DNA of 64,000 nt from Mimachlamys varia (lineage: Eukaryota > Mollusca > Bivalvia > Pectinida > Pectinidae), in contig OX392541.1 in the NCBI GenBank assembly GCA_947623455.1, positions 3,610,701 to 3,674,700 of the forward strand. Reading direction: 5' to 3'. The first letter of the stretch is position 1. The number at the start of each line of letters is the position of its first letter. The translations under genes and the position numbers were made by a program. The notes under the pieces are model-generated. The model searched no databases, was not told the origin of the DNA, and saw only the letters and a program-made list of their open reading frames with translations. Below are positions 1-59,785 of this stretch, piece by piece.

Positions 1-306
1 CAATAGATTAGAGACATGCAGGACTTTGGGGTTTTCCTTCAGTACATTCACTAGATGTGATTTCTAACAATTGCTGAAACATAGCTAGACTTAGCGGTTT
101 TCCTTCGGCACATTCACTACACGTTTTCTCAAAAATAGCTAACTTTCGTGGTTTTCCTTCAGCACATTCAATAGATGTTTTAGTATCTATAGTAGCTAGA
201 CTCACATTAAGCACATTCAATGAATATAATCTCTAAAACAGCTAGACTTACGTGGTTTTCCTTCAGCACATTCAATAGACGTAATCCCTAACGACCACAG
301 GTCACT
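1..306. repeat. Approximately 60-bp degenerate tandem repeat derived from kinase exon 11 and its donor
   Basis: Sequence like ggttttccttcagcacattc recurs near 29, 89, 151 and 253 (the last is the real exon), with a partial copy near 208. Each copy holds about 25-30 bases of coding sequence (ECAEGKP) plus the adjoining intron. The array probably continues left of the window. Confidence 0.85.
252..306 (-). CDS. TNIK/MINK1/MAP4K4: Kinase coding exon 11 (helix F), last exon in window
   Basis: Fifty-five bases encoding SDLWSLGITSIECAEGKP plus one base (phase 1). Acceptor tttcag, donor CCAC|gtaagt. SDLWSLGIT is the helix-F segment. The IECAEGKP part replaces the more usual IEMAEG. The exon 3' end recurs in at least three degenerate copies between position 1 and 180, each with the donor GT lost. 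The next exon, expected to begin with PLCDMHP-like sequence, is outside the window. Confidence 0.9.
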
Positions 307-1039
307 CTGAAAACACAAATAAATGTCATTAATTACGAGTACCAAATACTATAAATAGAACATAAAGCACAGATTTCTCATAACTTGTCATAAAATTTCT
401 ACAGAACTTGACCGTGGTAGTTTGTTTATGACAAGGTCAGACCTAGGTGACCTGATGCTGGTTTCTGGTAGACCTGACAAAGCCTTGAATCCATAAACTT
501 TTGTAAGTAGCCAGAATTTATCAGGAGAATGCCACATTAAACAACAGACTGATTGTTTTGTATAGACAAACAGGCTTTATAATAGGCAGGAAAAGCAGTG
601 GGAGAATTAGTGGGAGTAAATCAGTTGAGAGGGTGAGGGGGATGTGATTAACTAGATGAGTCAGTACAGTTATGACATGAATGCCCCCCATTGATAACCA
701 AAGAAAAGTGCATTTCTGGTGAAATTAAAAAAAAATCATTGGTGTTTGACAAGCTAGGCTATCTTATGTCTGTTATACCATTTCACTTAAATTTTCAAAA
801 ATAAAATTGGCCGTAGCTATGGAATGGAATAACGGCCAAAGGCACCACTATATGCCCTGGCCATTTCATGGTAGGGGCATGCATAAAACCCTAAAAGCCA
901 GGGCCCCTAGTGATCCTTTCGTAGAAATATACGGAGATACAACAGGTATACCGTTAACAATAACCCCCACAATACCACTACTTAGATCTGTATCTGTCAA
1001 TACGCGTTTTATAGATCAAGGGCAGATAACTGTACAAAC

Positions 1040-1097
1040 CCTGTTGTCGTAGGTGGCATCAGGATTTTCATCACAGGCTATAACTTCAGGCGCCATC
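1040..1097 (-). CDS. TNIK/MINK1/MAP4K4: Kinase coding exon 10 (APE motif)
   Basis: Fifty-eight bases: one base completing Trp195, then MAPEVIACDENPDATYDNR. Acceptor accaacag, donor AGG|gtttgt, phase 0. The polypyrimidine and acceptor region is partly duplicated in the repeat array immediately upstream in transcription (1098-1600). Confidence 0.93.
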
Positions 1098-1600
1098 CTG
1101 TTGGTCAGAGAGAAATGTATAACACTATATTTCTATAACAATAGATCAGAGATAAATGCATAATCAGCCTTCCTGTTGGTCAGAGAGAAATGTATAACAT
1201 TATGTTTTTATAATAATAGATCGATTAAAAATGTATAAAATCAATTTATAATAATGGATTAGATAGAAAGGTATAAAATTATATTTTTATAATAATAGAT
1301 CGATTAAAAATGTATGAAATTAATTTATAATAATGGATTAGATAGAAAGGTATAAAATTATATTTTTATAATAATAGATCGATTAAAAATGTATGAAATT
1401 AATTTATAATAATAGATTAGATAGAAAGGTATGAAATTATATTTTTATAATAATAGATCAATTAAAAATGTATAAAATTAATTTATAATAATAGATAAGA
1501 TAGAAAGATATAAAGTTATATTTTTATAACAATAGATCAGAGAGAAATGTATAACACTATATTTTTATAATAATAGATTAGAGAGAAATGTATAAAATCA
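1095..1600. repeat. Approximately 60-bp AT-rich tandem repeat at the kinase exon 10 acceptor
   Basis: Units containing agagagaaatgtataa and ataataatagat recur about eight times. The first units share cctgttggtcagagagaaat with the exon 10 acceptor (1097/1098); a second copy of that junction lies near 1167. Later units diverge. Confidence 0.75.
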
Positions 1601-1859
1601 TATTTATTTACACTTCTATTCACACATGATAACTATCTATGTCTTATATCTAAGTGATCCATAGTATTCAGCTTGATAAGATTTCGACAACAACTCCTTT
1701 CAGAATTGAACATCTTTTTTTCCCATGGCAGTTAATCAGCTATCCCTCTGTATTACAATACATTGTGATAAAATACAAACTTGTTTTTTAATTATGAAAC
1801 AAGTGTTTTCAACTTTTATCAATTACTCTTGTTGGTTTAAATGTTAGCATATAGAGGGT

Positions 1860-1985
1860 CTTATTGTGGGACGAAACTGGTTATCTAGAGAAAACCCAGG
1901 TGGTCGACCCTGTACCGTTTTGCATCCGATCTAGGAATCAAACCCAATCTGCCTTGGTGCAAAGTACACCATCTAACCACCCTAT
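1860..1985. repeat. Fragment of dispersed SINE-like element
   Basis: The stretch tgggacgaaactgg...agaaaacccaggtgg resembles, in reverse complement, the gggttttctccgggtactcc type sequence found again near 38188 and 47286. It is probably a decayed SINE or MITE body within intron 9. No complete ends are visible. The rest of intron 9 (1600-2133) shows nothing else. Confidence 0.4.
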
Positions 1986-2132
1986 ATTGCGATACTCTCC
2001 AGGCATTAAATTTCACCCTTTCTTTTATTTTAAATGAAGTCAAAATCTATACAACATTTATTTCTTCCCTGTTTAATTTTACCATAAAATAAGAATGCCT
2101 GTACCACTACACTATCTTTTCAATATATCTTA

Positions 2133-2237
<105 letters not shown>

Positions 2238-2520
2238 TCAAGGGAAAGTTCTAAATCGAGATGATGGGGCTCATATTCTCTTGCACATCTATGACCAAGT
2301 ATTAAACAAAGCATATTAACTAATACAGTAATTTTAGTACAATTATAACGCTATTGCATAGCTTTACACAGCTTAACATCACAGCCGAAAATGATGATCA
2401 TTTGTCTGATGAAGTTGACAGAGTACATACCTTACTAGTCAACAAAATATCACATATTAAACAATATTTCTTGATTGTGTAAAGGGAATCTTTACACAAA
2501 GTTGCATTATATGTTTGCTA

Positions 2521-2829
<309 letters not shown>

Positions 2830-2888
2830 TTAAAGACATACTCATCAAAATGGTCCAGCAATGATTTCTATATTAAATCTGTATCCTA

Positions 2889-3361
2889 TAGCGTGTTCCA
2901 TTTAGAGGAACGTTCCGGTTGTTCCAGAACGAACCGGACGTTCCGCTAAATGGAACACGACGTTCCAGCGGAACGAACCGGTTCGTCGGGAACGTTTCAT
3001 TTGAGGGTTCCAAGTTGGATCCAATATGGCGGCCAGTGAAAAGTTTTAGTTTCAGGTGTTCAATAAACTGTTAATAGACCTAACTGTAACCAGCTAGGCT
3101 GCATTTCATCAGTAAAATATAATACTTCCAACTCAAAGTGGCATCGTTGTGTGTAAAATGTGTAAATAAAAGGGATTACTCGCATTGTTTTGCGGATTTT
3201 ATGACGGAACCGTTTTGGTTATTCCCCGAAAAGTTGTTTCTTTTTCCTTTTAGATCATCAGATTTTCACCTGCAGGAACGGAATTTGGCACGTTCTGTTC
3301 CATTTAGCGGACCAGTTCCAAGTTGGCACATATGGAACATTCCGATAAATGGAACACGCTA
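2889..3361. mobile_element. MITE-like element with 16-bp perfect terminal inverted repeats
   Basis: TAGCGTGTTCCATTTA at 2889-2904 is the exact reverse complement of 3346-3361. Inside are further copies and inverted copies of the gttccatttagcgg and ggaacgttcc type. No transposase frame is present. The outermost TA may be the target duplication. It lies in kinase intron 7. Confidence 0.75.
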
Positions 3362-3870
3362 TTAGTGTACTAAAGTCAAGCTTTAAAGACATTTTCACAA
3401 TAGTTATCTTATAGGTCATTCTCCTTCCCCATCTCCCTCGAGTTCCCCCTAACAAACAACAATTTCAAAGAACTTGACAGGACATCTGTGCCAATGACAG
3501 CAGAAAGCCTATATCAAGACAAATATACTTTCTGATTGAGAATAACATTTCAAATTACATTTTTTTGTGAAGAATTATATTTCAAAATAAGAGAGAATCA
3601 TTGAGGCCCAAGACAGGGAAACTCAATCTCACAGAAAGTTATGTTTGGTCGTGGGATCTATTTATAGTGATATTGACCTTGATCTTACATCTTCAGACCT
3701 AAAGACACTGATGATACAAATTACAAAGATGCGATTGTTTTTCTGTGAAAATATAGAGTAAGCCGAATCTTCAAATAGATTCATTTTCGTTGAAAAAGCT
3801 CAGGGAAGAAAAGTTTATATTTTTCAGATTGTAGCAAATTCGAAAGCCTTTTGCTGACTGGTCTACGTAC
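3362..3870. other. Remainder of kinase intron 7
   Basis: No repeat, exon or conserved motif seen. The short open frames here lack splice support or family resemblance. Confidence 0.4.
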
Positions 3871-3932
3871 CCTCAGGATTTCTCTGGCAATATAGGCTAT
3901 CCACTCCTCCTTCAGGGAGTTGCCCTTCGTGG
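3871..3932 (-). CDS. TNIK/MINK1/MAP4K4: Kinase coding exon 7 (helix E start)
   Basis: Sixty-two bases: two bases completing an alanine codon, then TKGNSLKEEWIAYIAREILR. Acceptor attacag, donor AGG|gtacgt, phase 0 at the 3' end. The sequence aligns with the vertebrate GN(T/S)LKE(D/E)WIAYI(S/A)REILR segment. Confidence 0.94.
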
Positions 3933-4860
3933 CTGTAATAAGGTAATGAAATCTGTCAGAACATGTCTTATTTATTTTACAAGCTGAAGTGTTAAGATAA
4001 ACATTCAATCACACACAACAGAAAATGTCTGATATTAACCTACACTTGATATACTCTAATACACTAGAGCGAAAAAAGACAAAATCCCAAAAATATGCAA
4101 AATTGAATTTTTTCTAAAAAATTATTCTAAATTTGATCCCATGAAATAGATGTTGAACCCGTGCAGGAAGGGTGTAGAATTGTACCTGTTGTTCCGAATG
4201 CATGATTCAACTATATTTTGAATCTTAAATTATCTTTTCTCTTCTTTCTAAAACCACAATTTCCTTTCCTGACATCTTTCTTGACATCACCTTACTTTTG
4301 GCCTCTAGTTAAGTGTTCATTCCTGTGAGGAAGGCTAATTCCTACCTAACGCTTAGCATTATTGGAGTGGAATGACTTGTTTGCCTGTTGTTAGTTTAAT
4401 GTGACCAGAGCCCATTTATTCAAATGATGATTAGCTTAATCAATGATTTGCGCAAATTTTAATTATTCTGTAACTTTGAAATGAAACCATAGATTCAGTT
4501 ATAACTTTTCAGATTTCAAATATCTTGTAGTGTCTACTTACATGCAATTTTTTAAGATTTTACCTTGTACACTGACAGAAGTATTAAAGTTTGAAAAATG
4601 TTGTTAAATAGTGATCAAGCTAATCACCCTTGGAATAACCGGACCCAGGTGGGTTAGCACTAAAGATTGGTAAAAGTTATGAATTATCGCAAGGAGGCAT
4701 ACAGGAACATAACGCAGCCTCCCAAATACTCACCTAACATTTACACTCACATTACATACACCGGGAGGCCGTTTTTTTATGACCCTAGCTGTTGACATGA
4801 TAACCTCATCAAACAGACAAACCAAATAAGTAGAAATATTGAATTTTTGGCAACTCTCTA
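3933..4860. other. Kinase intron 6, single-copy part
   Basis: AT-rich intron sequence without array or recognisable element, up to the fold-back element at 4872. Confidence 0.4.
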
Positions 4861-4871
4861 AAGAAATTTGT

Positions 4872-5116
4872 CAGGATGATTCCAGTATATGCCCCCCCCC
4901 CCTTCCCCATCAACCAACCACCCAAAACCTGGAGCAGTGATTGTTACTATCAGTTAACACATATTTCTATACACATATGTAACAACTTTGTATAATTTTG
5001 TAATTTTAGTTTCAATACAGAAATATGTGTTAACTGATAAACAGTAACAATCACTGCTCAAGGGTGGTATGTTGAGGGGAAGGAGGGGGGGGGGTGCATA
5101 AACTGGAATCATCCTG
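4872..5116. mobile_element. Fold-back MITE beside kinase exon 6
   Basis: About 110 bases at 4872-4985 are nearly the reverse complement of 5005-5116; the termini are caggatgattccag and ctggaatcatcctg. Poly-C and poly-G tracts fall at matching positions of the two arms. A clear target duplication is not visible. It could form a long hairpin in the transcript about 40 bases from the exon 6 donor. Confidence 0.75.
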
Positions 5117-5156
5117 TCGGAATTCGGAGACTTTTTTAGCGTAATTATAAACAAAC

Positions 5157-5205
5157 CTTTGACTAGATCAGTTACAGAACCAGCTCCACAGAACTCCATA
5201 ACCAG
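5157..5205 (-). CDS. TNIK/MINK1/MAP4K4: Kinase coding exon 6 (hinge)
   Basis: Forty-nine bases encoding LVMEFCGAGSVTDLVK plus one base of a split codon. Acceptor tttcag, donor AAAG|gtttgt (phase 1). MEFCGAGS is the hinge region characteristic of GCK-IV kinases. The donor has a weaker GTTTGT consensus than the others, and a fold-back MITE lies about 40 bp inside the intron. Confidence 0.94.
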
Positions 5206-5395
5206 CTGAAACACAAGACAACTGGTATTACATACATATAACTACGGTGTATGGTGAGTACAGTATACTATAGATCGAATGACCAAAATTGTAATACAGG
5301 TATATATATATTTATTTTCATATCTTCGAGGCTTGTGTAGGGCACGGGTCAAAAATTGTCTTCCTTCGTCATTTGTGTTTCTGTGTAATTTGTCT

Positions 5396-13045
<7,650 letters not shown>

Positions 13046-13090
13046 TTTTTTAAGAACATTAATTTCCAGTTTAATTTCTTCTTCTTCATC
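13046..13090 (-). CDS. TNIK/MINK1/MAP4K4: Kinase coding exon 4 (helix C)
   Basis: Fifteen codons, DEEEEIKLEINVLKK, phase 0 at both ends, acceptor ttctag and donor AAA|gtgagt. Glu70 in LEI is the expected helix-C glutamate that pairs with Lys55. Confidence 0.93.
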
Positions 13091-13666: not shown

Positions 13667-13901
13667 ATACGTCTACCTTGGCTTAAATTCTAACACCACT
13701 GTACTAATACAAGCACCGGTCAAATACCAGACCTTGTAAAATAATTTGATAACATATATTTAACTGAAATTATGACAACAGAAAATTGATAGGTCCAAAA
13801 ATGATTCAGATTGCCTATAGCTCATTTAAATTCAGCTTGGATTTCAGATAGTTCAAAATATTGTTATAAATCTACGGCCCTGACACAAACAACAATCTTA
13901 C

Positions 13902-13958: not shown

Positions 13959-14249
13959 CTGAAAGTATAAAGACATTGGATGAAACACTCTGTATGTCTG
14001 CAAAAATTGATTAAAGCTACTAATATAATATTTGCTGAGTTTGGTTTCATATTGATTAAATTCCAAATGTATCTCGACTTATGAAAAGCGTAACTGAACT
14101 AAACAGGTAGTTTAATTCTATAAACTACACATGTATGACTGGCTGTAGCTAAGCTACCAGCCCGAAGTCTTCATGGAGAATTCCTCAACTTCTAGTTTAT
14201 TACTAGCTTATCTACCCTAGTTTAGAACTTTTAGACATCCAAGAATCAA

Positions 14250-14390
14250 AATTATTTGAGTTAATGTACAAACATACGCAATATTTAAATATTAAAATTA
14301 TTTGAGTTAATGTAAAAACATACGCATTATTTAAATATTAAAATTATTTGAGTTAATGTACAAACATACGCAATATTTAAATATCTATAT
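14250..14390. repeat. 63-bp tandem repeat, about 2.3 copies
   Basis: Units containing aaaattatttgagttaatgt and catacgcaatatttaaat occur at about 14250, 14311 and 14338-14383. Confidence 0.8.
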
Positions 14391-16260: not shown

Positions 16261-16261
16261 C

Positions 16262-16816
16262 AGCAACCGATTTCGTACTCGACCAGGCATGGTCACTGAT
16301 GATCTTGTACTTAACCAGACATGGTCACTGATGATCTTGTACTCGACAAGGCATGATCACTGATGATCTTGTACTCGACCAGGCATGATCACTGATGATC
16401 TTGTACTCGACCAGGCATGATCACTGATGATCTTGTACTCGACCAGGCATGGTCACTGATGATCTTGTACTCGACCAGGCATGATCACTGATGATCTTGT
16501 ACTCGACAAGGCATGGTCACTGATGATCTTGTACTTAACCAGACACGGTCATTGATGATCTTGTACTCGACCAGGCATGGTCACTGATGATCTTGTACTC
16601 GACCAGGCATGATCACTGATGATCTTGTACTCGACCAGGCATGGTCACTGATGATCTTGTACTCGACCAGGCATGATCACTGATGATCTTGTACTCGACC
16701 AGGCATGATCACTGATGATCTTGTACTCGACCAGGCATGGTCACTGATGATCTTGTACTCGACAAGGCATGGTCAATGATGATCTTGTACTTAACCGGGC
16801 ACGGTCATTGATGTTT
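16262..16816. repeat. 32-bp minisatellite, about 17 copies
   Basis: The unit combines gatgatcttgtactcgacc and aggcatggtcact; the G/A alternation in catggtcac/catgatcac and the cttaacc variant recur in blocks. It lies within kinase intron 2 and touches no exon. Confidence 0.95.
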
Positions 16817-18539
16817 TTGTAGTTGACCAAACATATGCTCAGAGCACATGAATACCAATATATATCATTTGATCTTATATTGCACATGCAGGAACGATGG
16901 AACAGAATGAATATGTTCTGCATTCAGTCAAATTGATTTAAATTTACAATAAACCTGTCAGTCAAATTCTTTTTTTTATAATATTTATTTTTTTTCATAC
17001 ATAAATTAAGTGCAAAAGGATTTTTTTGTCATATATCCTTCATCTCCTTGTGGAAGAAAGTGGCAACGGACATGTGCTCAAGTGCCTCGTTTCCAGCTTA
17101 AATTATTACACAATCTAAATACTTGTGTTATACACCATTAACCTGTATAATATAATTATGATTCAGACTCCGTATACACAACCTTTCGTTGACTTTATAC
17201 ACCAACCTATCAACGCTTTATTCATGAATATTTACAAACCAGTCTTTGGTTGAAATTCATTTTTAATGCCCCAGCCATAAAATGACCGATTCTCTTACAC
17301 TGAATTGGTCGTCATTCTGTCATTGCCCCATAATTTTATTTCCGCTTATTTAATAATTAAGTAACAGATAAAGATATTGAACTGTTCTTTGTTATAAACC
17401 TGTTCAATAATAAGATATAGTCAAGCTCTGATTTGGTGATGATCCACCAATTTTTTTAAAGAGTTTTGGCCAAATCTAACTCTGAAAATTTCAGTCAAGC
17501 AATGCATTCATGTCATACTGACACATTTAATTTTATCACAAATTCTATACTGCATTTGTGTATTTCTATTAACGAAAAACAAAATACCTAAACATGAAAA
17601 GTATCTGTCCCTGAACCAAGGCATTCCGGGCGCTTCATTATAAATCTGGTTAAGAACCCACTGCTATAGGGTTCCATGGATCTCGATCATCTCACTATAT
17701 GTAAGACCAGAATCAAAACCCTCAGGGGAACGGCCAGATCCTACAGCTAACCATGGTAATATATATAATCATGTGTCATTTTTCTTATGCCAAGCAAGTA
17801 TACATATTTGATTATAGATTTTGGGAATAACAACCGTATCCAAATTATAATTTAAGAACTAAGAAACAACATGTTGTTTTATAAATCATAAGTCTGAACC
17901 GTTAACGAGCAGATAATCTGAAATCATTATCTCATTACAGGCCATGTGAACCTCCAGGCCAATACTCAAAAGTTGACAATCTGTCTGTCTTATTCACCAA
18001 GTGTAAAGAAAATATTTCAAAAGTTTTCCGAATTTCATACTCTTTTTCTCAATGTTTATCTTGTGGATGAAAAGTCTAAATTTCGGAGTCATTTCCTCAC
18101 TAATTTTAAGATATTTATCTTGCTCCCACTAAAATTCTAAAGAGATATTTTTTTCATTAAAACTATTTTTTTACCATATATTTACTGTTCTAAAAGATAT
18201 TTTGGAATTACCACGCTTCATCCCAATTATCATCTTGGGACAAATCGCCATGCTATTATTTCAGCTTCAGAATCTTTAATCTCTTTGTTGTTGTTCGATT
18301 CGCACACAGAGTGTACTCGGTGGACGATGACACCGACATTCTAAATTCTGCCTTCGGCTAACGCTAGCCGAATGGCTTACTGATATTGAAATAACCAAAA
18401 CCACTTCTTATTATACTTTTAATATTGTTTTCGTTATGTAATTGTTTTATGTCACTTTGTGTCTTGATAAAGGAGTGGATTGCCCCGAAAATTTTATGTT
18501 GGAACTACTTCTTATAGCCCTTTATAGGTAATTTTGGAG
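16817..18539. other. Kinase intron 2, single-copy part
   Basis: AT-rich, with no array or clear element. It includes 17333-17367, whose exact copy is embedded in the exon 2 minisatellite (20795-20829). Confidence 0.5.
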
Positions 18540-22259
<3,720 letters not shown>

Positions 22260-38299: not shown

Positions 38300-39410
38300 A
38301 AAGTTTATAGGTTCTACTGTACACACAGACCAAAGTCTCCAGACTAACAAGGTTCTACTGTACACACAGACCAAAGTGTCCAGACTAACAAGGTTCTACT
38401 GTACACACAAACCAAAGTGTCCAGACTAACAAGGTTCTACTGTACACACAGACCAAAGTGTCCAGACTAACAAGGTTCTACTGTACACACAGACCAAAGT
38501 GTCCAGACTAACAAGGTTCTACTGTACAAACAAACCAAAGTGTCCAGACTAACAAGGTTCTACTGTACACACAGACCAAAGTGTCCAGACTAACAAGGTT
38601 CTACTGTACAAACAAACCAAAGTGTCCAGACTAACAAGGTTCTACTGTACAAACAGAACAAAGTGTCCACACTAACAAGGCTCTACTGTACACACTAACA
38701 AGGTTCTACTGTACACACAAAGCAAAGTGTCCAGACTAACAAAGTTCTACTATACACAAAAACTTAAGTGTGAAACTTAAAACAAAAACAAAACAAAGTG
38801 TCCAGACTAACAAGGTTCTACTGTACACACAGTCCAAAGTGTCCAGACTAACAATGTTCTATAGCTACTGTACACACAAACCAAAGTGTCCACACTAGCA
38901 AGGTTCTACTGTACACACAAACCAAAGTGTCCAGACTAACAAGGTTCTACTGTACACACAAACCAAAGTGTCCACACTAGCAAGGTTCTACTGTACACAC
39001 AAACCAAAGTGTCCAGACTAACAAGGTTCTACTGTACACACAAACCAAAGTGTCCACACTAGCAAGGTTCTACTCTACACACAGACCAAAGTGTCCACAC
39101 TGGCAAGGTTCTACTGTACACACAGACCAAAGTGTCCACACTAGCAAGGTTCTACTGTACACACAGACCAAAGTGTCCAGACTAACAATGTTCTATAGCT
39201 ACTGTACACACAAACCAAAGTGTCCACACTAGCAAGGTTCTACTGTACACACAGACCAAAGTGTCCAAACTAGCAAGGTTCTACTGTACACACAAACCAA
39301 AGTGTCCAGACTAACAAGGTTCTACTGTACACACAAACCAAAGTGTCCAGATTAACAAGGTTCTACTCTACACACAAACCAAAGTATCCACACTAAAAGG
39401 GTTCTACTGT
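38300..39410. repeat. 41-bp minisatellite, about 26 copies, in OTU leader intron
   Basis: The unit combines ggttctactgtacacacaga, ccaaagtgtccagactaaca and a. Variants include cacactagcaagg and an inserted atagct. It is about 180 bases from the first-exon donor and does not include it. Confidence 0.95.
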
Positions 39411-40330
39411 ACGACAGCAAGCTTTAAGGTTCTATACGCTTACGGTACGTTTAGATCTAAAGTTAATTCGATATTTAACTGTTGATCACAAATTAAATCA
39501 GCTGGACAAACAATCATTGGCCTCGCTACTATATGTAGACACTTCATCTTACCGACATATAGAACATATACATACAAAACGAACTCACCGCAAACACTGC
39601 ACTGTCCGCAATGGCCCCAGCGTCGCCTTCAAATTAGTTTTAATCTGATCAGTACAATTGACAAAGTCTAAATTCAAGAATATCACAAGCTGTTGACATA
39701 ACATGTAATGGTCGCTACTTCCTGTGAACATGCGCACTGTGATAGGTAAATAACGGGTAGATTGTCACCTGTATAATAACAGTGTAATATACACGTCCAG
39801 ACACGAACTATCAATCAAATGTATATACCTGTACTCAATGGTACTGGGATACGTGTACGTAATGTGTAATAGACACCGGGTAGATTTATTGATTTAGCGC
39901 TTCCCCGCCTACAAGAAAGTCTGTATTTCTGTTAATAATTAATAATAATAAAGATGATACCATCAATTTATTTTAAAGTCTATACAGTAGGGCTTACTCT
40001 ATTTACATTGGCAGACTGGTGTGGCCTCTAGTAATTATTTTGAATTACTGTCGTTCACAGCATTTTAGGCAATTTAATTACTATCACGGACTTAAATTAA
40101 ATTGCTATGTAGGGACCCCATTGGAAATAAGCCTTTATGGCTTGAAAGAAGTCAATCTGTGATTTTACCATCTGTGATATTTTAAATTCAAATTAAACTG
40201 TCCATCCAAAGATTGCTTAATTTTATGTATTTAATTGTTGCCTTTTACCTGAATAAATATTATTATTATTACTATCTAAATCCGTGCTATGATACATGTT
40301 TTTAACCTTCCCCGTGCACGTGGTTTTGAC

Positions 40331-42964: not shown

Positions 42965-43215
42965 GCATTGCATCGTCGGAAACCCACGGTACACCAACCG
43001 CCATCGTCGGAAACCCACGGTATATATACCAACCGCCATCGTCGGAAACCCACGGTACACCAACCGCCATCGTCGGAAACCCACGGTACACCAACCGCCA
43101 TCGTCGGAAACCAACGGTACACTTATCTTAAGTATGCAAACGTCAGAGAAGTGTACCGTGGGTTTCCGACGATGACCAACCGCAAGCATCAGTGTACCGT
43201 GGGTTTCCGACGATG
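42965..43215. repeat. 31-bp tandem repeat with inverted end copies
   Basis: The unit is catcgtcggaaacccacggt followed by acaccaaccgc, five copies to about 43115, then two copies in reverse orientation at 43155-43175 and 43193-43215. The frames on both strands (HRRKPTVHQPPSSET-type) are only translations of the repeat. Confidence 0.9.
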
Positions 43216-43394
43216 ACTGCATTGCTATTTTTCCACAATCGCTTCCCCTCTCAAAGACGTTCCAGTACTTGATGATAAGTATATCTCTGTATATGATAAA
43301 TAAGAACTCGTCGAAAATATTTAAGTTTTCGGGATTTTCTTCATAAAAAACTTTTGGACTAATTCCAGGATCAGCATCTTTATATATTTTTTAA

Positions 43395-47100: not shown

Positions 47101-47101
47101 A

Positions 47102-47375
47102 ACCTGGGCCCCGGTGGCCGAGTGGTTAATGTGTCCCAACATTCTACTACTAGCCCTCCACCTATGGGCCTCGGTGGCCGAGTGGTTAATGGGTCCCGAA
47201 ATTTTACCACTAGCCCTCCACCTCTGGGCTGCGAGTTTAAAAACCCCTGTGGGCCAGTTGCCAGGTACTGACTGTAGGTTGGTGGTTTTTCTACAGGTAC
47301 TCTGGCTTCCCTCCACCTCCAAAACCTGGCCCGTCCTTAAATGACCCTGGCCATTAATAGGACGTAAAACAAAAA
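47102..47375 (+). mobile_element. tRNA-derived SINE with duplicated head
   Basis: Two copies of ggtggccgagtggttaatg (A-box, tRNA-Leu/Ser-like) at about 47111 and 47174 are followed by a decayed B-box near 47230 (gcgagtttaaaaaccc) and a body with ggtggtttttctacagg, tactctggcttccctccacc and a cattaataggacgtaaaac 3' part. Confidence 0.7.
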
Positions 47376-49270
47376 TAAACCTTACTGTAAGTGTTTTACC
47401 ATATCACTGATGAACAAGAACCATAGGTGAGAAGTTCATAACATACAATTCTGAAACTGAATTTACATTTGGTATAATTAGTTCATAATGCAGGTGCATG
47501 GCAAAAGAGAAGTTAAGTTTGATTGGATTGCAACTTTATATAAATGTAGATTGTTAATGTAAATCTAAAAGGTCATTTTTTTTCTATAAGCAATAAATAA
47601 AAACATGTTTTCATGATTATAATTTTAAAATAGCAGACATTTGAAATATTTATGTTCAGAAAATATTTAATACATGTACAGGCAAAAATCTTGAAAAACA
47701 TACAGAATGATTCACAACCGTTGTGTATCTCAATGCTGGAGTGGTATAAAATAGTATGGTTATCTGTCCAGCAGACTAATGTTATTACAAACATGATATG
47801 AACAGGTTAGCATGACTACCTATAAGAAATGGCATGATGAATATTATACAATGAGGTAAAAAACAATGAATTGTGTCCGTATTAAGTGTCAAACATAATG
47901 ACTTCAAATTCTTGGCCCTTTTGCCTAATTAAATCATACAACTTTCAAAAATGTGATTTGTTTTAGATCTTTGAAAAAAAAGATGGTTTTTCCTTTTTAA
48001 AAAATAAAGATTGTTAGGTTTTCTTTGTCATAATTATCAAGATTACATTTGAATTCTAATTAATACAATTAATCTATTCAGGTTTGAGCCTTACGAGGAT
48101 CCCTGTACCAAATCTGATAAGTTACAATTTAACAACAGTTAAAGTATAGCTAATAGTTGAACAACTAGGTACCCGCACAATTCAGTACCAGGCAGTGTCT
48201 TTTTCATAAGTCATCTATATTTTTTTTTAATTTGATAGTTAATCTGATGCCAAGAATTTATATCATGTTATATTGAAAGTTTCAATTAAATTGACTAAGC
48301 TGAACCGGCATGTCTATAAATACATCCCTGCATGTATGTACAGATTTTCATTAAAAATGATAAAAGTAAAAAAAGAAATTAAATTTAGTGGGGTGGGGGG
48401 GGAGTAAGGGGTAGGAGGGATATATAAACATATATGCATAAGAAACACAGTCTACATGAGGTTTTTGAGGACAGGGGCCATGTATAGAAACCGCCTGATC
48501 GGAATGTGTGAAACTATCAAGTCTACAGTAATGATATGTAAAGACAAAATATGTGTGGTACAGGGTGATATGTATGAATCAAACAAAAGGACAAATTCAC
48601 AATTATGTGAGTTAAAAAATACAAACATTAAAAATAAAATCATGTTAAGTTCAGCACCAAATAGACTTCCAGTGTCATGTCTAAGAATCTGGTACTAATC
48701 TCACTGAGGAGGCCCTCTCCACCGTTTGAAGGCTTTCTCAGTTCTAACACCAGACTATCGTGTACCATATGTAATCATAACATGAGATTCATTCAATAGG
48801 TCCTGCTGGTATTAAACAAATAAAGCAGATGTCGATACATTGTAAAAATCTGGATTAAAAAATGGAACATTGTAATGATGAAATTGGTGTACACCACGAG
48901 CAAAAGTACTCGGGAATATTTTGTGTTACACAGTCCAGCTAGTACATGTATTCCTAATTATGATTTCACCAGTCCTTCCGTTACAGATACTGTATAGATA
49001 TATATATGTCGTCAGTCCTAGTATTCCTAATGATTCCACCAGCCGTTACAGATAAGCGTAGTGGAGTGTATCCACTGGATATAAAGAATAATATATATAT
49101 ATATATCTTTGTGATCATGAGTACATGTAAAACGAAATTAAAAACTGTATATGTGAATCTTTAAATTGATTGATTAAATTGATTAAACTTAATACCATTT
49201 TCAACTTGGAATTTTTACCAGGCCATGAATGGATTTAAAACATTTTTACAATAAATTCATTTTTCGAGAC
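47376..49270. other. Region downstream of the membrane-protein gene
   Basis: AT-rich, no gene supported. May hold the 3' UTR of the membrane-protein gene near its right end. Contains a poly-G-rich tract (about 48390-48410) and AT dinucleotides (49092-49106). Confidence 0.4.
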
Positions 49271-49271
49271 C

Positions 49272-49545
49272 TCAGGGCCCGTATTCATGAAACCGTTCTC
49301 ATGCTCAAGCATGGATTTTGTGCTCAAGTCAGCTTTCTTGTACTTTCTTAAATTGTGTCAAATGATCAAAAAGTAAAATGTAAACATTGAAAACAGTATT
49401 TGGCTTCCTCAATCTTATAAATTACTTCAAAACCTTTGGCAATTAAAATATCATTTCATTATTAATTAAATTATAATTGAATCAAGAAATTGGGCTTGAG
49501 CATCAAATCCGTGCTTGAGCAAGATAACAGTTTCATGGTTACAAC
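49272..49545. mobile_element. Fold-back element
   Basis: gtattcatgaaaccgttctc and atgctcaagcatggatttt pair imperfectly with atcaaatccgtgcttgagc and aacagtttcatgg. About 130-bp arms; no clear target duplication. Confidence 0.55.
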
Positions 49546-49677
49546 CCCTCAGAATTTGATTTTCAACATGAGAATGGTCTCATGAATATGTCGCAATTTC
49601 TTATAGTAGGCTTACAACACGGAACACTGTATCATCAGCATGCTTGGTTTTTGTTATCAACACATTCCTAGATGACA

Positions 49678-50009
49678 TCAGCATGTCGGGTTCGCGTTCA
49701 CCACCTGAGTCTGGGGGAGCTGAGAGAACACAACAGCCTCACTGTTTGTTATAGTGGTACTGGTGGAGGACGAGTCAGGTGTGGGGTCTGTACTGTCCGC
49801 CTGACCAGCGGGCTCCCTGACACCAGTAGCTTCCAGGTTATTGACCAACATTGTCTGTGTAAGCTGTTGTTTTCTCAGTTGTCTCCTCCTGATAATGATG
49901 ATGACCACTAGGGCCACGATTGACAGGACCAGCAATGGCACCAACACTCCAACAGCAATTTTAGCAGGGCCGTTCACTACAACAACAAGTCCAGGTGAAT
50001 TACAAAAAC
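49678..50009 (-). CDS. Membrane protein CDS exon 5 (transmembrane helix and tail, stop)
   Basis: Two bases completing Cys138, then FCNSPGLVVVVNGPAK, a 23-residue hydrophobic helix, RRRQLRKQQ and a polar tail ending NANPTC and TGA (49680-49678). Acceptor tttcag at 50010. The tail has a TDPTPDSSSTSTTITNS stretch with possible phosphorylation sites. Confidence 0.88.
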
Positions 50010-50681
50010 CTGAAAGGAGAATTCTGTCATTTATTTTCATTTTAAGGAAATACAAGACAATCAGACTGCCTGCACAATCCATTAGGGTAGAAAGGCTAAA
50101 TACAGTTACACATACCAGATAAAATGCCTGGAGTTGCAGGGTTAGAAACTAACTTTTTCAATATATTAGTCCAAAGGACAAGTAAACTTTATAAGGTACT
50201 AGTCCTGTGGTACTGTGACTTGTCTTAAGGGTTTCAGCCTCATCTAAAACACTAAGTGATGAACATCAAATCGCGAAGCGATGAGCCAGCGGGCTAGTAC
50301 AGAAGGGGGAAGGGGGGTCTCCCACAGAAAAAATTGATATCTTAATGCTCTAAAATGAGTTTTGTGTATCCTGAGTTCTAACTGTGTACCATTTCTTCTC
50401 CTTGAATAAGCTACAGTATAGATTAGAATACAAAAACGAAATAGAAAACTCAACTAGTCCACAGGACTAATAAAGAGCATATTTACTAGTCCTTCAGAAT
50501 TTTTACTAGTCTCGGACTAACAGACTTGTGTTAGTGTCGAACCCTGGGTTGGAGAAAGCTCCAGGAACCAAGAACGATTCACATGTACCAGGAAGGGACT
50601 AAGAACCATTCACGTGTACCAGGAAGGGACTAAGAACCATTCATGTGTACCAGGAAGATTTCTAGTGTTATGAAAACTTAC

Positions 50682-50763
50682 ATGTTGCACATCCCTCGGT
50701 TATCAGTTCCAACTTTTCATCCATAAAATCTACTTTTCCAAGTTTTTCGGAGATGAAATCAAT
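50682..50763 (-). CDS. Membrane protein CDS exon 4
   Basis: Eighty-two bases: IDFISEKLGKVDFMDEKLEL, ITEGCAT and one base. Acceptor attacag, donor ACAT|gtaagt, phase 1. Ends at the juxtamembrane cysteine cluster. Confidence 0.83.
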
Positions 50764-51480
50764 CTGTAATTGAAGAAAACCAGTACTTAAACATTAATCA
50801 TATTATGACGATACTTCAATTCAAAACTCCTGGTAAACAAAAATGCAAAATAGGAAATGCATCTGACCAAAACAGTTTGGAGTAGTACATACATAAATCA
50901 GAAAATTTTAGTTGTAATTTGGCACTTGTCTATTTTATATAAACTTTATTTATTTTACAACAATTATGAAACAAGTTATCCATCATTTTACATATCAATT
51001 TCACCAATCTGATTAAAATACAGATCCTCACTATTACTTTCATGTGTAGGATCTGACAGCGACTGATAAAAGGTCATGTGCAGATGACCTTTATTATTTC
51101 CATATCTTGGAAATGAACAGCCAATCAAAATGCACTTTGTATTAACGGTGGCTGGTAGACGAACAAAAATGGTGACTGTATTTTAATCAGATTGCAATTT
51201 CACCTGAAGGGTAAAACTGTGTAAAACACCGGGGAATATGGAATGTACCATCTTCTAAATATTTTCTGCATCCTTGGAATATGGAATCACACACATAATA
51301 TGTCAGGAAGAGAACTTTGAAGCGACAGATGTGAAGAATGGCTGAGATGAATGCAACCTCTGGAGAATCAGGAATGATACTGTACAGATGTCAGGCATAC
51401 AAGAGGCCCAGAGGACCTGTATTGTTATTTTGAGCCTGTATATTTTAGTGTCCGTGTAACTATGTTGACCCAGTACTCAC

Positions 51481-51615
51481 ATTGACCCTGTATTTTTTAG
51501 CCTCTGTGTAGCCCTGTTGGACTGTTATGAAAACTTCATCATCAAAACCATCAATCATTCTCCTCTCTACTTCTTTGCTGAATGTCGCTTTCCAGTCTAA
51601 GACAGGATTTTTACA
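51481..51615 (-). CDS. Membrane protein CDS exon 3
   Basis: Forty-five codons, phase 0 at both ends: CKNPVLDWKATFSKEVERRM, IDGFDDEVFITVQQ and GYTEAKKYRVN. Acceptor tttcag, donor AAT|gtgagt. Tryptophan and alternating hydrophobics fit beta strands. Confidence 0.87.
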
Positions 51616-51699
51616 CTGAAATCAAACACAATAACACAAATAATCAAACCATCAAACAAAACTCTCAATGCAAATTACACTGTAAAAACTCATAATTGT

Positions 51700-54600
51700 A
51701 TAGGAGGGCAAACTGTTCAGCCTTAACACTGTTCATTCTTTACACTGTTCACTCTTTACACTGTTCAGTCTTTACACTGTTCACCCTTTACATTGTTCAT
51801 TCTTTACACTGTTTACCTTTTACATTGTTCATTCTTTACACTGTTTACCCTTTACACTGTTCACCCTTTACACTGTTCAGTCTTTACACTGTTCACCCTT
51901 TACACTGTTCAGTCTTTACACTGTTCACCCTTTACATTGTTCATTCTTTACATTGTTCATTCTTTACATTGTTCATCCTTTACATTGTTTACCCTTTACA
52001 CTGTTCACCCTTTACACTGTTCACCCTTTACATTGTTCATTCTTTACATTGTTTAGTCTTTACACTGTTCAGTCTTTACACTGTTCACCCTTTACACTGT
52101 TTACCCTTTACACTGTTCACCCTTTACACTGTTCAGTCTTTACACTGTTCACCCTTTACACTGTTCAGTCTTTACACTGTTCACCCTTTACATTGTTCAT
52201 TCTTCACATTGTTCATTCTTTACACTGTTCACCCTTTACATTGTTCACCCTTTACACTGTTCACCCTTTACACTGTTCACCCTTTACATTGTTCATTCTT
52301 TACATTGTTTAGTCTTTACACTGTTCAGTCTTTACACTGTTCACCCTTTACACTGTTCACCCTTTACATTGTTCATTCTTTACACTGTTTAGTCTTTACA
52401 CTGTTCAGTCTTTACACTGTTCACCCTTTACACTGTTCACCCTTTACACTGTTTAGTCTTTACACTGTCCATTCTTCACACTGTTTATCCTTTACACTGT
52501 TCACCCATTACACTGTTTATCCTTTACACTGTTCACCCATTACACTGTTCAGTCTTTACACTGTTCACCCTTTCCACTGTTCATTTTTTACACTATTCAC
52601 CCTTTACACTGTTCAACCTTTACACTGTTCATTCTTTACACTGTTCACCCTTTACATTGTTCACCCTTTACACTGTTCAACTTTTACATTGTTCATTCTT
52701 TACATTGTTCACCCTTTACGCTGTTCATTCTTAACACTGTTCACCCTTTACACTGTTCACCCTTTACACTGTTCACCCTTTACATTGTTCATTCTTTACA
52801 CTGTTTACCCTTTACACTGTTCACCCTTTACATTGTTCATTCTTTACATTGTTCAGTCTTTACACTGTTCACCCTTTACATTGTTCACCCTTTACACTGT
52901 TCATTCTTTACATTGTTCATTCTTTACACTGTTTAGTCTTTACACTGTTCAGTCTTTACACTGTTCACCCTTTACACTGTTCACCCTTTACACTGTTCAC
53001 CCTTTACATTGTTCATTCTTTACACTGTTTAGTCTTTACTTTACACTGTTCATCCTTTACACTGTTCACCCTTTACACTGTTCACCCTTTACACTGTTCA
53101 GTCTTTACACTGTTCACCCTTTACACTGTTTAGTCTTTACACTATTCATCCTTTACACTATTCACCCTTTACAAAGTTCACTCTTTACACTGTTCACCCT
53201 TTACACTGTTCATTTTTACACTATTCACCCTTTACACTGTTCAACCTTTACACTGTTCATTCTTTACACTGTTCACCCTTTACATTGTTCACCCTTTACA
53301 CTGTTCACCTTTTACATTGTTCATTCTTTACATTGTTCACCCTTTACACTGTTCATTCTTTACACTGTTCACCCTTTACATTGTTCACCCTTTACATTGT
53401 TCACCCTTTACACTGTTCATTCTTTACACTGTTCACCCTCTACATTGTTCATTCTTTACACTGTTCATTCTTTACACTGTTCACCCTTTACATTGTTCAT
53501 TCTTTACATTGTTCATTCTTTACACTGTCCATTCTTTATACTGTTTACCCTTTACACTGTTTACCCTTTACACTGTTCACCCTTTACATTGTTCATTCTT
53601 TACACTGTTCAGTCTTTACACTGTTCACCCTTTACACTGTTCACCCTTTACATTGTTCATTCTTTACACTGTTTAGTCTTTACACTGTTCAGTCTTTACA
53701 CTGTTTACCCTTTACATTGTTCATTCTTTACATTGTTTATCCTTTACACTGTTCACCCATTACACTGTTAGTCTTTATACTGTTCACCCTTTACACTGTT
53801 TAGTCTTTACAATGTTCATCCTTTGCTCTATTCACCCTTTACAAAGTTCACTCTTTACACTGTTCACCCTTTCCACTGTTCATTTTTTTACACTATTCAC
53901 CCTTTACACTGTTCAACCTTTACACTGTTCATTCTTTACACTGTTCACCCTTTACATTGTTCACCCTTTACACTGTTCAACCTTTATATTGTTCATTCTT
54001 TACATTGTTCACCCTTTCGATGTTCATTCTTTACACTGTTCACCCTTTACATTGTTCATTCTTTACATTTTTCACCCTTTACATTGTTCATTCTTTACAC
54101 TGTTCATTCTTTACACTGTTCACCTATTACACTGTTCACCCTTTACACTGTTCACCTATTACACTGTTCACCCTTTACACTGTTCACCTTTTACACTGTT
54201 CACCCTTTACACTGTTCACCCTTTACACTGTTCACCCTTTACACTGTTCACTCTTTACACTGTTCACCCTTTACACTGTTCATCCTTACAATGTTCACCC
54301 TTTACACTCTTCACCTTTTTCACTCTTCACCCTTTACACTGTTCACCTTTTACACTCTTCACCCTTTACACTGTTCACCCTTTACACTGTTCACCTTTTA
54401 CACTGTTTATTATTTACACTGTTCATCCTTACACTGTTCACCCTTTACACTGTTTATTATTTACACTGTTCATCCTTACACTGTTCACCTTTTACACTGT
54501 TTATTATTTACACTGTTCACCCTTTGCACTATTCACCCTTTACACTGTTCACCTTTTACACTGTTTATTATTTACACTGTTCACCCTTTACACTGTTTAT

Positions 54601-55110
54601 TATTTACACTGTTCATCCTTACACTGTTCACCCTTTACACTGTTCATCCTTACACTGTTCACCCTTTACACTGTTCATCCTTACACTGTTCACCCTTTAC
54701 ACTGTTTATTATTTACACTGTTCATCCTTACACTGTTCACCCTTTACACTGTTCATCCTTACACTGTTCACCTTTTACACTGTTTATTATTTACACTGTT
54801 CACCTTTTACACTGTTTATTATTTACACTGTTCATCCTTACACTGTTCACCCTTTACACTGTTTATTATTTACACTGTTCATCCTTACACTGTTCACCTT
54901 TTACACTGTTTATTATTTACACTGTTCACCCTTTGCACTATTCACCCTTTACACTGTTCACCTTTTACACTGTTTATTATTTACACTGTTCACCCTTTAC
55001 ACTGTTTATTATTTACACTGTTCATCCTTACACTGTTCACCCTTTACACTGTTCATCCTTACACTGTTCACCCTTTACACTGTTCATCCTTACACTGTTC
55101 ACCCTTTGCA
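51700..55110. repeat. 16-bp minisatellite, about 210 copies, in intron 2 of the membrane-protein gene
   Basis: The unit is tttacactgttcaccc with cagtc, cattc and ttacc variants; from about 54400 a compound unit with tttattatttacactgttc takes over. The plus strand of the unit has no stop codon in any frame, which creates open frames of up to 691 codons that are not genes. Confidence 0.97.
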
Positions 55111-55149
55111 TGGCTTTTTATTCAGTGTATAACACCTAAACAACTATAA

Positions 55150-58100
55150 CTATAGATAAGTTGAGACTGACCGGTCTATATAACTTACGTCTATAGATAA
55201 GCTGAGACTGACCGGTCTATATAACTTACGTCTATAGATAAGTTGAGACTGACCGGTCTATATAACTTACATCTATAGATAAGTTGAGACTGACCGGTGT
55301 ATATAACTTACGTCTATAGATAAGTTGAGACTGACCGGTGTATATAACTTACATCTATAGATAAGTTGAGACTGACCGGTGTATATAACTTACGTCTATA
55401 GATAAGTTGAGACTGACCGGTGTATATAACTTACATCTATAGATAAGCTGAGACTGACCGGTGTATATAACTTACATCTATAGATAAGCTGAGACTGACC
55501 GGTCTATATAACTTACATCTATAGATAAGCTGAGACTGACCGGTGTATATAACTTACATCTATAGATAAGTTGAGACTGACCGGTGTATATAACTTACAT
55601 CTATAGATAAGCTGAGACTGACCGGTGTATATAACTTACGTCTATAGATAAGTTGAGACTGACCGGTGTATATAACTTACGTCTATAGATAAGTTGAGAC
55701 TGACCGGTGTATATAACTTACGTCTATAGATAAGTTGAGACTGACTGGTCTATATAACTTACGTCTATAGATAAGTTGAGACTGACCGGTGTATATAACT
55801 TACATCTATAGATAAGTTGAGACTGACTGGTCTATATAACTTATGTCTATAGATAAGTTGAGACTGACCGGTCTATATAACTTATGTCTATAGATAAGCT
55901 GAGACTGACCGGTGTATATAACTTATGTCTATAGATAAGCTGAGACTGACCGGTGTATATAACTTATGTCTATAGATAAGCTGAGACTGACCGGTGTATA
56001 TAACTTATGTCTATAGATAAGCTGAGACTGACCGGTGTATATAACTTATGTCTATAGATAAGCTGAGACTGACCGGTGTATATAACTTACATCTATAGAT
56101 AAGCTGAGACTGACCGGTGTATATAACTTACATCTATAGATAAGTTGAGACTGACCGGTGTATATAACTTACATCTATAGATAAGCTGAGGGTGACCGGT
56201 CTATATAACTTACATCTATAGATAAGTTGAGACTGACCGGTGTATATAACTTATGTCTATAGATAAGCTGAGACTGACCGGTGTATATAACTTATGTCTA
56301 TAGATAAGCTGAGACTGACCGGTGTATATAACTTACGTCTATAGATAAGCTGAGACTGACCGGTGTATATAACTTACATCTATAGATAAGTTGAGACTGA
56401 CCGGTGTATATAACTTACGTCTATAGATAAGTTGAGACTGACCGGTCTATATAACTTACATCTATAGATAAGTTGAGACTGACCGGTGTATATAACTTAC
56501 GTCTATAGATAAGCTGAGGGTGACCGGTGTATATAACTTACATCTATAGATAAGTTGAGACTGACCGGTGTATATAACTTACGTCTATAGATAAGTTGAG
56601 ACTGACCGGTGTATATAACTTACGTCTATAGATAAGTTGAGACTGACCGGTCTATATAACTTACATCTATAGATAAGCTGAGGGTGACCGGTGTATATAA
56701 CTTACATCTATAGATAAGTTGAGACTGACCGGTGTATATAACTTACGTCTATAGATAAGTTGAGACTGACCGGTGTATATAACTTACATCTATAGATAAG
56801 TTGAGACTGACCGGTGTATATAACTTACGTCTATAGATAAGTTGAGACTGACCGGTGTATATAACTTACATCTATAGATAAGTTGAGACTGACCGGTGTA
56901 TATAACTTACGTCTATAGATAAGTTGAGACTGACCGGTGTATATAACTTACATCTATAGATAAGCTGAGACTGACCGGTGTATATAACTTACATCTATAG
57001 ATAAGTTGAGACTGACCGGTGTATATAACTTACGTCTATAGATAAGCTGAGACTGACCGGTGTATATAACTTACGTCTATAGATAAGTTGAGACTGACCG
57101 GTGTATATAACTTACGTCTATAGATAAGTTGAGACTGACCGGTGTATATAACTTACATCTATAGATAAGCTGAGACTGACCGGTGTATATAACTTACGTC
57201 TATAGATAAGTTGAGACTGACCGGTCTATATAACTTATGTCTATAGATAAGCTGAGACTGACCGGTGTATATAACTTACGTCTATAGATAAGTTGAGACT
57301 GACCGGTGTATATAACTTACATCTATAGATAAGTTGAGACTGACCGGTCTATATAACTTACATCTATAGATAAGTTGAGACTGACCGGTCTATATAACTT
57401 ACATCTATAGATAAGCTGAGGGTGACCGGTCTATATAACTTACATCTATAGATAAGCTGAGACTGACCGGTGTATATAACTTACGTCTATAGATAAGTTG
57501 AGACTGACCGGTCTATATAACTTACATCTATAGATAAGTTGAGACTGACCGGTCTATATAACTTACATCTATAGATAAGTTGAGACTGACCGGTCTATAT
57601 AACTTACATCTATAGATAAGTTGAGACTGACCAGTGTATATAACTTACGTCTATAGATAAGCTGAGACTGACTGGTCTATATAACTTACGTCTATAGATA
57701 AGTTGAGACTGACCGGTGTATATAACTTACATCTATAGATAAGCTGAGACTGACCGGTGTATATAACTTACGTCTATAGATAAGCTGAGACTGACTGGTC
57801 TATATAACTTACGTCTATAGATAAGCTGAGACTGACTGGTCTATATAACTTACGTCTATAGATAAGCTGAGACTGACTGGTCTATATAACTTACGTCTAT
57901 AGATAAGCTGAGACTGACTGGTCTATATAACTTACGTCTATAGATAAGCTGAGACTGACTGGTCTATATAACTTACGTCTATAGATAAGCTGAGACTGAC
58001 TGGTCTATATAACTTACGTCTATAGATAAGCTGAGACTGACTGGTCTATATAACTTACGTCTATAGATAAGCTGAGACTGACTGGTCTATATAACTTACG

Positions 58101-59690
58101 TCTATAGATAAGCTGAGACTGACTGGTCTATATAACTTATGTCTATAGATAAGCTGAGACTGACTGGTCTATATAACTTACGTCTATAGATAAGCTGAGA
58201 CTGACTGGTCTATATAACTTACGTCTATAGATAAGCTGAGACTGACTGGTCTATATAACTTACGTCTATAGATAAGCTGAGACTGACTGGTCTATATAAC
58301 TTACGTCTATAGATAAGCTGAGACTGACCGGTCTATATAACTTACATCTATAGATAAGCTGAGACTGACCGGTCTATATAACTTACATCTATAGATAAGC
58401 TGAGGGTGACCGGTCTATATAACTTACATCTATAGATAAGCTGAGGGTGACCGGTCTATATAACTTACATCTATAGATAAGTTGAGACTGACCGGTGTAT
58501 ATAACTTACGTCTATAGATAAGTTGAGACTGACCGGTGTATATAACTTACGTCTATAGATAAGCTGAGACTGACCGGTCTATATAACTTACATCTATAGA
58601 TAAGCTGAGGGTGACCGGTCTATATAACTTACGTCTATAGATAAGCTGAGACTGACCGGTCTATATAACTTACATCTATAGATAAGTTGAGACTGACCGG
58701 TCTATATAACTTACATCTATAGATAAGTTGAGACTGACCGGTCTATATAACTTACGTCTATAGATAAGCTGAGGGTGACCGGTCTATATAACTTACATCT
58801 ATAGATAAGCTGAGACTGACCGGTGTATATAATTCACGTCTATAGATAAGTTGAGACTGACCGGTGTATATAACTTCCGTCTATAGATAAGTTGAGACTG
58901 ACCGGTGTATATAATTCACGTCTATAGATAAGTTGAGACTGACCGGTGTATATAACTTCCGTCTATAGATAAGTTGAGACTGACCGGTGTATATAACTTA
59001 CGTCTATAGATAAGCTGAGACTGACCGGTGTATATAACTTACGTCTATAGATAAGTTGAGACTGACCGGTGTATATAACTTACGTCTAGAGATAAGTTGA
59101 GACTGACCGGTGTATATAACTTACGTCTAGAGATAAGTTGAGACTGACCGGTGTATATAACTTACGTCTATAGATAAGCTGAGACTGACCGGTCTATATA
59201 ACTTACATCTATAGATAAGTTGAGACTGACCGGTGTATATAACTTACGTCTATAGATAAGTTGAGACTGACCGGTCTATATAACTTACGTCTATAGATAA
59301 GTTGAGACTGACCGGTGTATATAACTTACGTCTATAGATAAGTTGAGACTGACCGGTGTATATAACTTACGTCTATAGATAAGTTGAGACTGACCGGTGT
59401 ATATAACTTACGTCTATAGATAAGTTGAGACTGACTGGTCTATATAACTTACGTCTATAGATAAGCTGAGGGTGACCGGTCTATATAACTTACATCTATA
59501 GATAAGTTGAGACTGACCGGTCTATATAACTTACATTTATAGATAAGTTGAGACTGACCGGTCTATATAACTTACATCTATAGATAAGTTGAGACTGACC
59601 GGTCTATATAACTTACATCTATAGATAAGTTGAGACTGAGCGGTCTATATAACTTACATCTATAGATAAGCTGAGGGTGACCGGATCATC
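55150..59690. repeat. 40-bp minisatellite, about 113 copies, anchored on exon 2 donor
   Basis: On the minus strand the unit is ccggtcagtctcaacttatc, tatagat|gtaagttatatag. The terminal copy contains the real exon 2 end (59658). Variants: ctgaggg/ttgagac, tgtata/tctata, acatct/acgtct. A block at about 57775-58320 is nearly uniform, indicating recent homogenisation. Confidence 0.97.
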
Positions 59691-59785
59691 ACATTGGTTG
59701 ACGTCCACAGTGATGTGGGAAAGGCAAACTCCGTCAATTCTGTAGTAACAATCGGCATGCAAATGATGGTACTTGCATATTTGTC
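59658..59785 (-). CDS. Membrane protein CDS exon 2 (cysteine-rich N-terminus)
   Basis: 128 bases: two completing Gly23, then QICKYHHLHADCYYR, IDGVCLSHITVDVNQ and CDDPVTLSLSID. The other two frames are closed, and the phase matches exon 1. Acceptor tttcag, donor GAT|gtaagt. Its last 27 bases with the donor are the terminal unit of the 40-bp array. Confidence 0.87.

Follow-up and report, generated by a model that had tools for sequence, protein, structure and literature searches.

Arrays across splice junctions in other systems

Minisatellite-like tandem duplications of exon-intron boundaries, named mirages in 2002 (NAR 30:2871, as cited in PMC3087553 and PMC3902484), occur in amphioxus in Adh3, TnC, PGBD5, and the globin genes BflGb6 and BflGb9. 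In the excerpts of PMC3087553 and PMC3902484 they span both 5' and 3' boundaries, and splicing is reported to be undisturbed. Amphioxus mirages also display length polymorphism, somatic instability, and a concerted evolution that acts within the array and less at its edges. Here, we describe a 64,000-nucleotide stretch of the scallop Mimachlamys varia genome (positions 3,610,701 to 3,674,700 of contig OX392541.1, assembly GCA_947623455.1; this whole stretch is the window) in which tandem arrays start inside the 3' ends of three exons of a MAP4K4/TNIK/MINK-type kinase gene and of one exon of a membrane-protein gene, with another crossing a kinase acceptor. We favor, with a probability of about 0.7, the explanation that these are mirage-type minisatellites: chance tandem duplications across junctions that are tolerated because the outermost splice site stays in use.

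Junctions are named by gene and exon. Thus, k2, k5, and k11 are the donors of kinase exons 2, 5, and 11, and m2 and m3 are those of membrane-gene exons 2 and 3; k10, k12, and k14 are kinase acceptors, k15, kB, and kC are kinase donors, and kD (predicted) and kH are acceptors outside the window. The scallop arrays are a larger, molluscan representative of the amphioxus type, because the defining anatomy and the involvement of both boundaries are common to the two. As far as the amphioxus excerpts go, the unit in each case crosses the junction and holds the exon end and the intron start (as at the k2, k5, k11, and m2 donors and the k10 acceptor), acceptors are hit besides donors (k10, k14, and predicted kD), sequence and period differ from site to site (10 to 160 bp in amphioxus and 28 to 69 bp in scallop), and splice signals are kept in many, not all, of the decoys. 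The differences described there are of host and of scale. Amphioxus is a cephalochordate, whereas the mollusc arrays are known from the sequence of a single assembly; BflGb6 haplotypes have 3 and 6 units, whereas scallop arrays reach 122 units and 7.2 kb, and one scallop gene has six donors and two to three acceptors hit. A curiosity of amphioxus genes is thereby extended to a mollusc on a larger scale. Among the matches listed from the open-licence literature there is no mollusc case of the mirage type, and none appears in the excerpts of PMC4039745 and PMC7931591.

Three other systems, judged from partial texts, share some of these features. A human minisatellite described in 1995 (cited in PMC2572611 and PMC3618361) also has donors in its units, but its title has the repeats supplying donor sites to a transcript, whereas reading frame and stop codons would argue against use of the scallop decoys. 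Human segmental-duplication genes have internal tandem repeats that likewise cross exon-intron boundaries (PMC2812944, in excerpt), but these reshape the exons of recent paralogues and alter their splicing, whereas the scallop protein appears unchanged. Intron gain through tandem duplication of AG/GT segments (slash, splice site; e.g., PMC4974935, in excerpt) similarly includes splice signals in the duplication, in contrast to the scallop genes, which have no evident new intron. The scallop introns are also a natural test bed for the idea that duplicated junctions contribute to the gain of introns or to changes in exons.

Four arrays anchored at exon 3' ends

The window contains three minus-strand genes: the kinase gene, an OTU-domain gene, and the membrane-protein gene, which has five coding exons. 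Kinase exons 1 to 11 lie inside the window and the remainder of the gene continues for ~90 kb as far as the CNH domain. When spliced, exons 1 to 11 give a single reading frame, and its alignment with solved MAP4K4 kinase domains is gapless (best E value, 7.5e-135; two alignments displayed), and the joint of membrane-gene exons 2 and 3 has no gap in 5/5 homologues; the exon ends of both genes are thus supported by homology of the predicted proteins. The membrane protein shares 77% identity with a protein of Mizuhopecten yessoensis. Tandem arrays make up 28,440 of the 64,000 window bases and 28.3% of the 264 kb around the window.

A preliminary description of the window had placed arrays where kinase exons 2, 5, and 11 and membrane-gene exon 2 end, and all four are indeed anchored at these 3' ends:

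18550..21003, minus strand: k2 array, 55 bp; exon 21040-20975, AAG/GTAGGT; 44 full units
5397..12573, minus strand: k5 array, 58 bp; exon 12643-12563, TGG/GTAAAT; 122 full units
1..282, minus strand: k11 array, decayed, ~5 irregular units of ~55 bp; exon 306-252, CAC/GTAAGT; stops at about the window edge
55150..59684, minus strand: m2 array, 41 bp; exon 59785-59658, GAT/GTAAGT; 110 full units

Unit counts include the exon copy; incomplete rows are dropped, as are leading rows of plain exon (one in k2, two in k5, one in k11, and three in m2). The periods first given as 55 and 58 bp are confirmed, and those put at about 60 and 40 bp are measured as an irregular ~55 bp (k11) and 41 bp (m2). The k2 unit consists of ~30 final coding bases, the donor, and ~25 intron bases, and the k5 unit carries 11 coding bases in an array that occupies ~7.2 of the 7.36 kb of kinase intron 5. 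In k2, k5, and m2, mean identity between units stays at 92 to 97% whichever of the displayed lags is taken, with little drop with distance in k5 and a slight drop in m2.

We note that the 58-bp k5 consensus unit (5397-12573) also contains TACTAAC and terminates in TTTATACCAG, so that it resembles a 52-nt mini-intron with a 6-nt exon (CTATGG), possibly by coincidence.

A donor had been reported in every founder unit. This holds for three arrays, with GT kept in 44/44 (k2), 122/122 (k5), and 98/110 (m2, with loss in 12 units) full units, but not for k11, in which GT is in register in 1/4 full units, this being the exon copy; a GTGAGT in the second k11 unit lies slightly off register, by a few bases. 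Retention of this kind could reflect selection for the arrays themselves, with many donors acting in cis, for example to hold the U1 small nuclear ribonucleoprotein against premature polyadenylation in long introns or to set splicing kinetics. The complete retention in k2 and k5 agrees with such a role. However, GT is lost in part of m2 and in three of the four full k11 units, conservation in these two arrays is no higher at the donor than elsewhere in the unit, and acceptors have arrays too; a cis-acting role is very improbable. The decoy donors look passively carried: in conservation among unit dinucleotides, GT ranks first in k2 and k5 (of 55 and 58, respectively, ties included), but only 32nd in m2 (of 41) and 48th in k11 (of 55). 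We therefore reject the donor as a specially conserved part of the unit. RNA structure is likewise rejected as a trait common to the units: folding of two-unit segments relative to shuffles gives z values of -0.65 for k2 and 0.19 for k5, and m2 alone is unusual (z of -2.67, with 1/200 shuffles equally stable).

Long arrays are difficult to assemble, and repeats could have been collapsed or misassembled at exon ends. Such an artefact is very unlikely, given that there are 20, 31, and 26 distinct unit sequences in k2, k5, and m2, that the exon copies are in frame, and that decayed arrays (k11 and k14) occur beside regular ones.

Probable tolerance of duplicated junctions

In the explanation that we favor, a short tandem duplication in an array-rich stretch of the genome would occasionally land across an exon-intron junction. 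With the outermost authentic site retained, the mRNA would be unchanged and all extra copies would be intronic, free to expand (up to 122 copies), to homogenize, and later to decay. Expansion is seen at k2, k5, and m2, and decay at k11, k14, and perhaps m3. Because an in-frame stop lies 12 nt (k2), 24 nt (k5), 32 nt (k11), or 36 nt (m2) beyond the true donor, selection on the mRNA should maintain splicing at the outermost site. The donor would probably be chosen by order of transcription, the first transcribed being taken, or by exon definition. The encoded protein appears unchanged by the arrays, and its predicted continuity fits exon boundaries that are older than the arrays. The sequence shows the arrays, their anchoring, the coding homology of the exon side, intact or decayed decoys, and hits on donors as well as acceptors; how the transcripts are really spliced, in what order the events took place, and whether they were neutral is inferred. 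Introns with 44 to 122 near-identical tandem donors offer a natural experiment in which the spliceosome has to choose among equal donors.

Growth of the arrays toward the intron had been put forward as a sign either of a process acting at donors or of tolerance on that side. Tolerance fits well, but the direction of growth has no evidential weight of its own: provided that splicing takes the outermost site, every other copy is intronic by definition.

Acceptor arrays and junctions beyond the window

The first reading of the window counted four junction-anchored arrays among about eight and overlooked an array that spans an acceptor:

1092..1608, minus strand: k10 acceptor-spanning array; exon 1097-1040

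One additional copy in this array, at 1197, holds the acceptor and 6 exon bases (30/31 identical), and the remaining units hold the pyrimidine tract only. In all, 10 arrays of the window lie in transcribed sequence, of which four are at donors as claimed, a fifth junction array is at the k10 acceptor, and five are elsewhere. This list was made by hand; it omits the arrays downstream of the OTU-domain and membrane-gene stop codons, as well as a weak row of 2.4 copies at 2927-2978. A possible further duplicate lies at the third membrane-gene exon:

51519-51482 and 51467-51430, minus strand: m3 exon end and one decayed intronic copy, offset by 52 nt, 30/38 identical

Although 0/1,000 shuffles reach the score of this copy, 88/3,000 control fragments (2.9%) do, and on its own it is within background. 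Once 31 tests are allowed for, the weak signals at k7 and k8 (shuffle fractions, 0.017 and 0.03) no longer stand.

The flanks (200 kb around the window), unseen in the preliminary description, contain further cases in the same kinase gene, and the seeding of independent arrays on splice junctions is real. Scanning array units for donor motifs identifies a kB array of 69 bp and 8.6 copies with intact donors in 7/8 units, at an exon that we take to have a recognizable family motif, and a kC array of 56 bp and 4.1 copies with intact donors in 4/4. A k15 donor array of 28 bp and 2.3 copies emerges from junction-by-junction testing, with the exon placed by homology and its end by scan. The k14 acceptor has a two-copy duplication (36/40 identical) whose upstream copy lacks the AG, TAT replacing TAG. 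A strand-controlled scan of array edges adds a predicted exon, kD, with an acceptor in all 13 array units, and in a third gene, at window coordinate +109.65 kb, an array of 25 units, each of 50 bp, at a predicted donor. The exons at kC, kD, and the third gene are predictions from exon-scan scores, with kD also having a weak tblastn match (E value, 1.5). The kH and k12 acceptors are not counted as spanned: at kH the array ends 11 to 15 nt short of the exon, and at k12 unit-like sequence extends by alignment to 7 nt from the exon with the edge called by Tandem Repeats Finder (TRF) ~70 nt off. Array-edge exon calls at -77221 and -2838 are judged false, the kG donor lying upstream and -2838 falling inside k15, and two acceptor calls at 473-bp satellites, among 56 arrays outside the kinase gene, are also not counted.

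The third-gene donor array (+109530 to +110899) has units with CTGTCTCACAG/GTAC that are simultaneously acceptor-like and donor-like, a motif presumably similar to a recursive splice site.

The arrays could also represent a dispersed mobile element, or an introner, whose insertion introduced the introns or splice sites. No point in support of this was found in the analysis, and we reject it as exceedingly unlikely. An exact search of the 975-Mb assembly (71 contigs) with a 27-mer of m2, the only unit searched genome-wide, returns 31/31 reported matches inside its own array. The nine junction units have no common sequence (5/36 pairs score at or above the 95th percentile of 60 shuffles, with k5-kB alone exceeding all 60), and the exon portion that the kinase units carry is conserved and coding.

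Frequency of junction arrays

The preliminary description regarded the donor anchoring as unlikely by chance. Donor overlap does exceed random placement, but the excess is local and post hoc, and we regard it as suggestive. Donors are overlapped by 4/10 window arrays where 0.38 are expected (P for at least four, 3.5e-4; 0.0047 with a two-unit founder), in a post hoc test of a hand-picked window. The kinase gene has 53 arrays, which cover 26.9% of its length, and founder units account for 4.1% of the collapsed gene. Among kinase donors found first by homology, 4/24 are spanned compared with 0.98 expected (P = 0.015), and among all those known 6/27 are spanned compared with 1.10 (P = 0.0007), two of the six having been discovered via arrays. 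These excesses weigh against the explanation that we favor, since pure tolerance would predict no donor excess unless founder units favor exon-like sequence.

TRF calls arrays at 2/27 known kinase acceptors (1.10 expected; P = 0.30) and at 1/24 of those found first by homology, to which k14 is added. All 54 known kinase junctions together have 8 spanned compared with 2.2 expected (P = 0.0015, or 0.0076 if there are 70 junctions). Donors and acceptors differ by 6/28 versus 2/28 among homology-first junctions (Fisher P = 0.25; the six include the weak m3 copy), by 8/33 versus 2/33 among all known junctions (P = 0.082) and 7/33 versus 1/33 among those called by TRF (P = 0.054), both counted before kD, and by 6/27 versus 3/27 in the kinase gene with kD (P = 0.47). 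The difference is not significant in any of the four counts, and two approach significance. A lean toward donors is possible but unproven, and because acceptors (k10, k14, and predicted kD) are also spanned, the donor-directed process suggested earlier is not established.

These counts bear most directly on the alternative that splice junctions, at both ends and perhaps more at donors, are hotspots of tandem duplication at which arrays arise faster, for example through transcription-coupled R-loops, polymerase pausing, or template switching. Besides the overlap in the window and in the kinase gene, a strand-controlled test of kinase array edges gives exon-like donor edges (score of at least 20) at 6/53 arrays on the sense strand and 0/53 on the antisense strand (Fisher P = 0.027). 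However, only four of the six sense edges are judged real (k2, k15, kB, and kC), the other two lying inside or beyond known exons, and the same test missed k5, k11, and k10. Nor are donor motifs enriched in the units of the 87 flank arrays (16 observed and 13.2 expected at a score of at least 7, 7 and 7.1 at 8, 2 and 3.5 at 9, and 2 and 1.8 at 10). Most cases come from one gene; held-out donors alone yield three, with a P value of 0.021 if 15 donors are assumed or 0.080 if 25 are, and removal of the three exons discovered via arrays leaves 5 of the known kinase junctions spanned (P = 0.069). An event of the type invoked can be identified within one array:

20795..20829, minus strand: 35-base insert within the k2 array; exact copy of 17333-17367 in the same intron, ~3.46 kb off; template-switch signature

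Because of this exact templated insert from the same intron, template switching probably acted at least once in the k2 array, and the insert is compatible with hotspots. It informs how arrays change, not the reason for their location at junctions. We consider junction hotspots possible but doubtful. Equally tentative is the stronger proposal that scallop junctions of both kinds are birthplaces of arrays at a several-fold intronic rate, such that about one-fifth of a gene's donors bear arrays, with up to 122 competing donors of which the spliceosome reliably takes the first. If junction enrichment were true genome-wide, the question of where minisatellites are born would become directly testable.

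Other repeats of the window

The five arrays that lie elsewhere in transcribed sequence span no junction:

51712..55107, minus strand: 16-bp array that shares its intron with the m2 array, 42 nt apart from it; spans no junction
14248..14384, minus strand: intronic array away from junctions
16275..16829, minus strand: intronic array away from junctions
50563..50657, minus strand: 31-bp array that begins 25 nt past the donor of membrane-gene exon 4; the donor itself is outside the array
38309..39412, minus strand: array of the OTU-domain gene, in a presumed intron of the 5' untranslated region, away from junctions

The 16-bp unit (51712-55107) holds CAGTGTAAA, which is similar to the exon 3 acceptor TTTCAG/TGTAAAAA 97 nt off, and is possibly acceptor-derived. 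The OTU-domain protein shares 81 to 83% identity with proteins from Argopecten, Pecten, and Ylistrum. At 42971-43230, a 31-bp array is flanked by inverted copies (CATCGTCGGAAACCCACGGTACAC) and forms a palindromic repeat, and at 62302-64000 there are arrays of ~113 to 148 bp with CAAGATGGCGGC-like motifs. A repeated tRNA-like stretch (agctcaattggttgagcgtccg and variants) is present at ~22320, 22590, 34990, and 61300 and probably represents a family of short interspersed elements.

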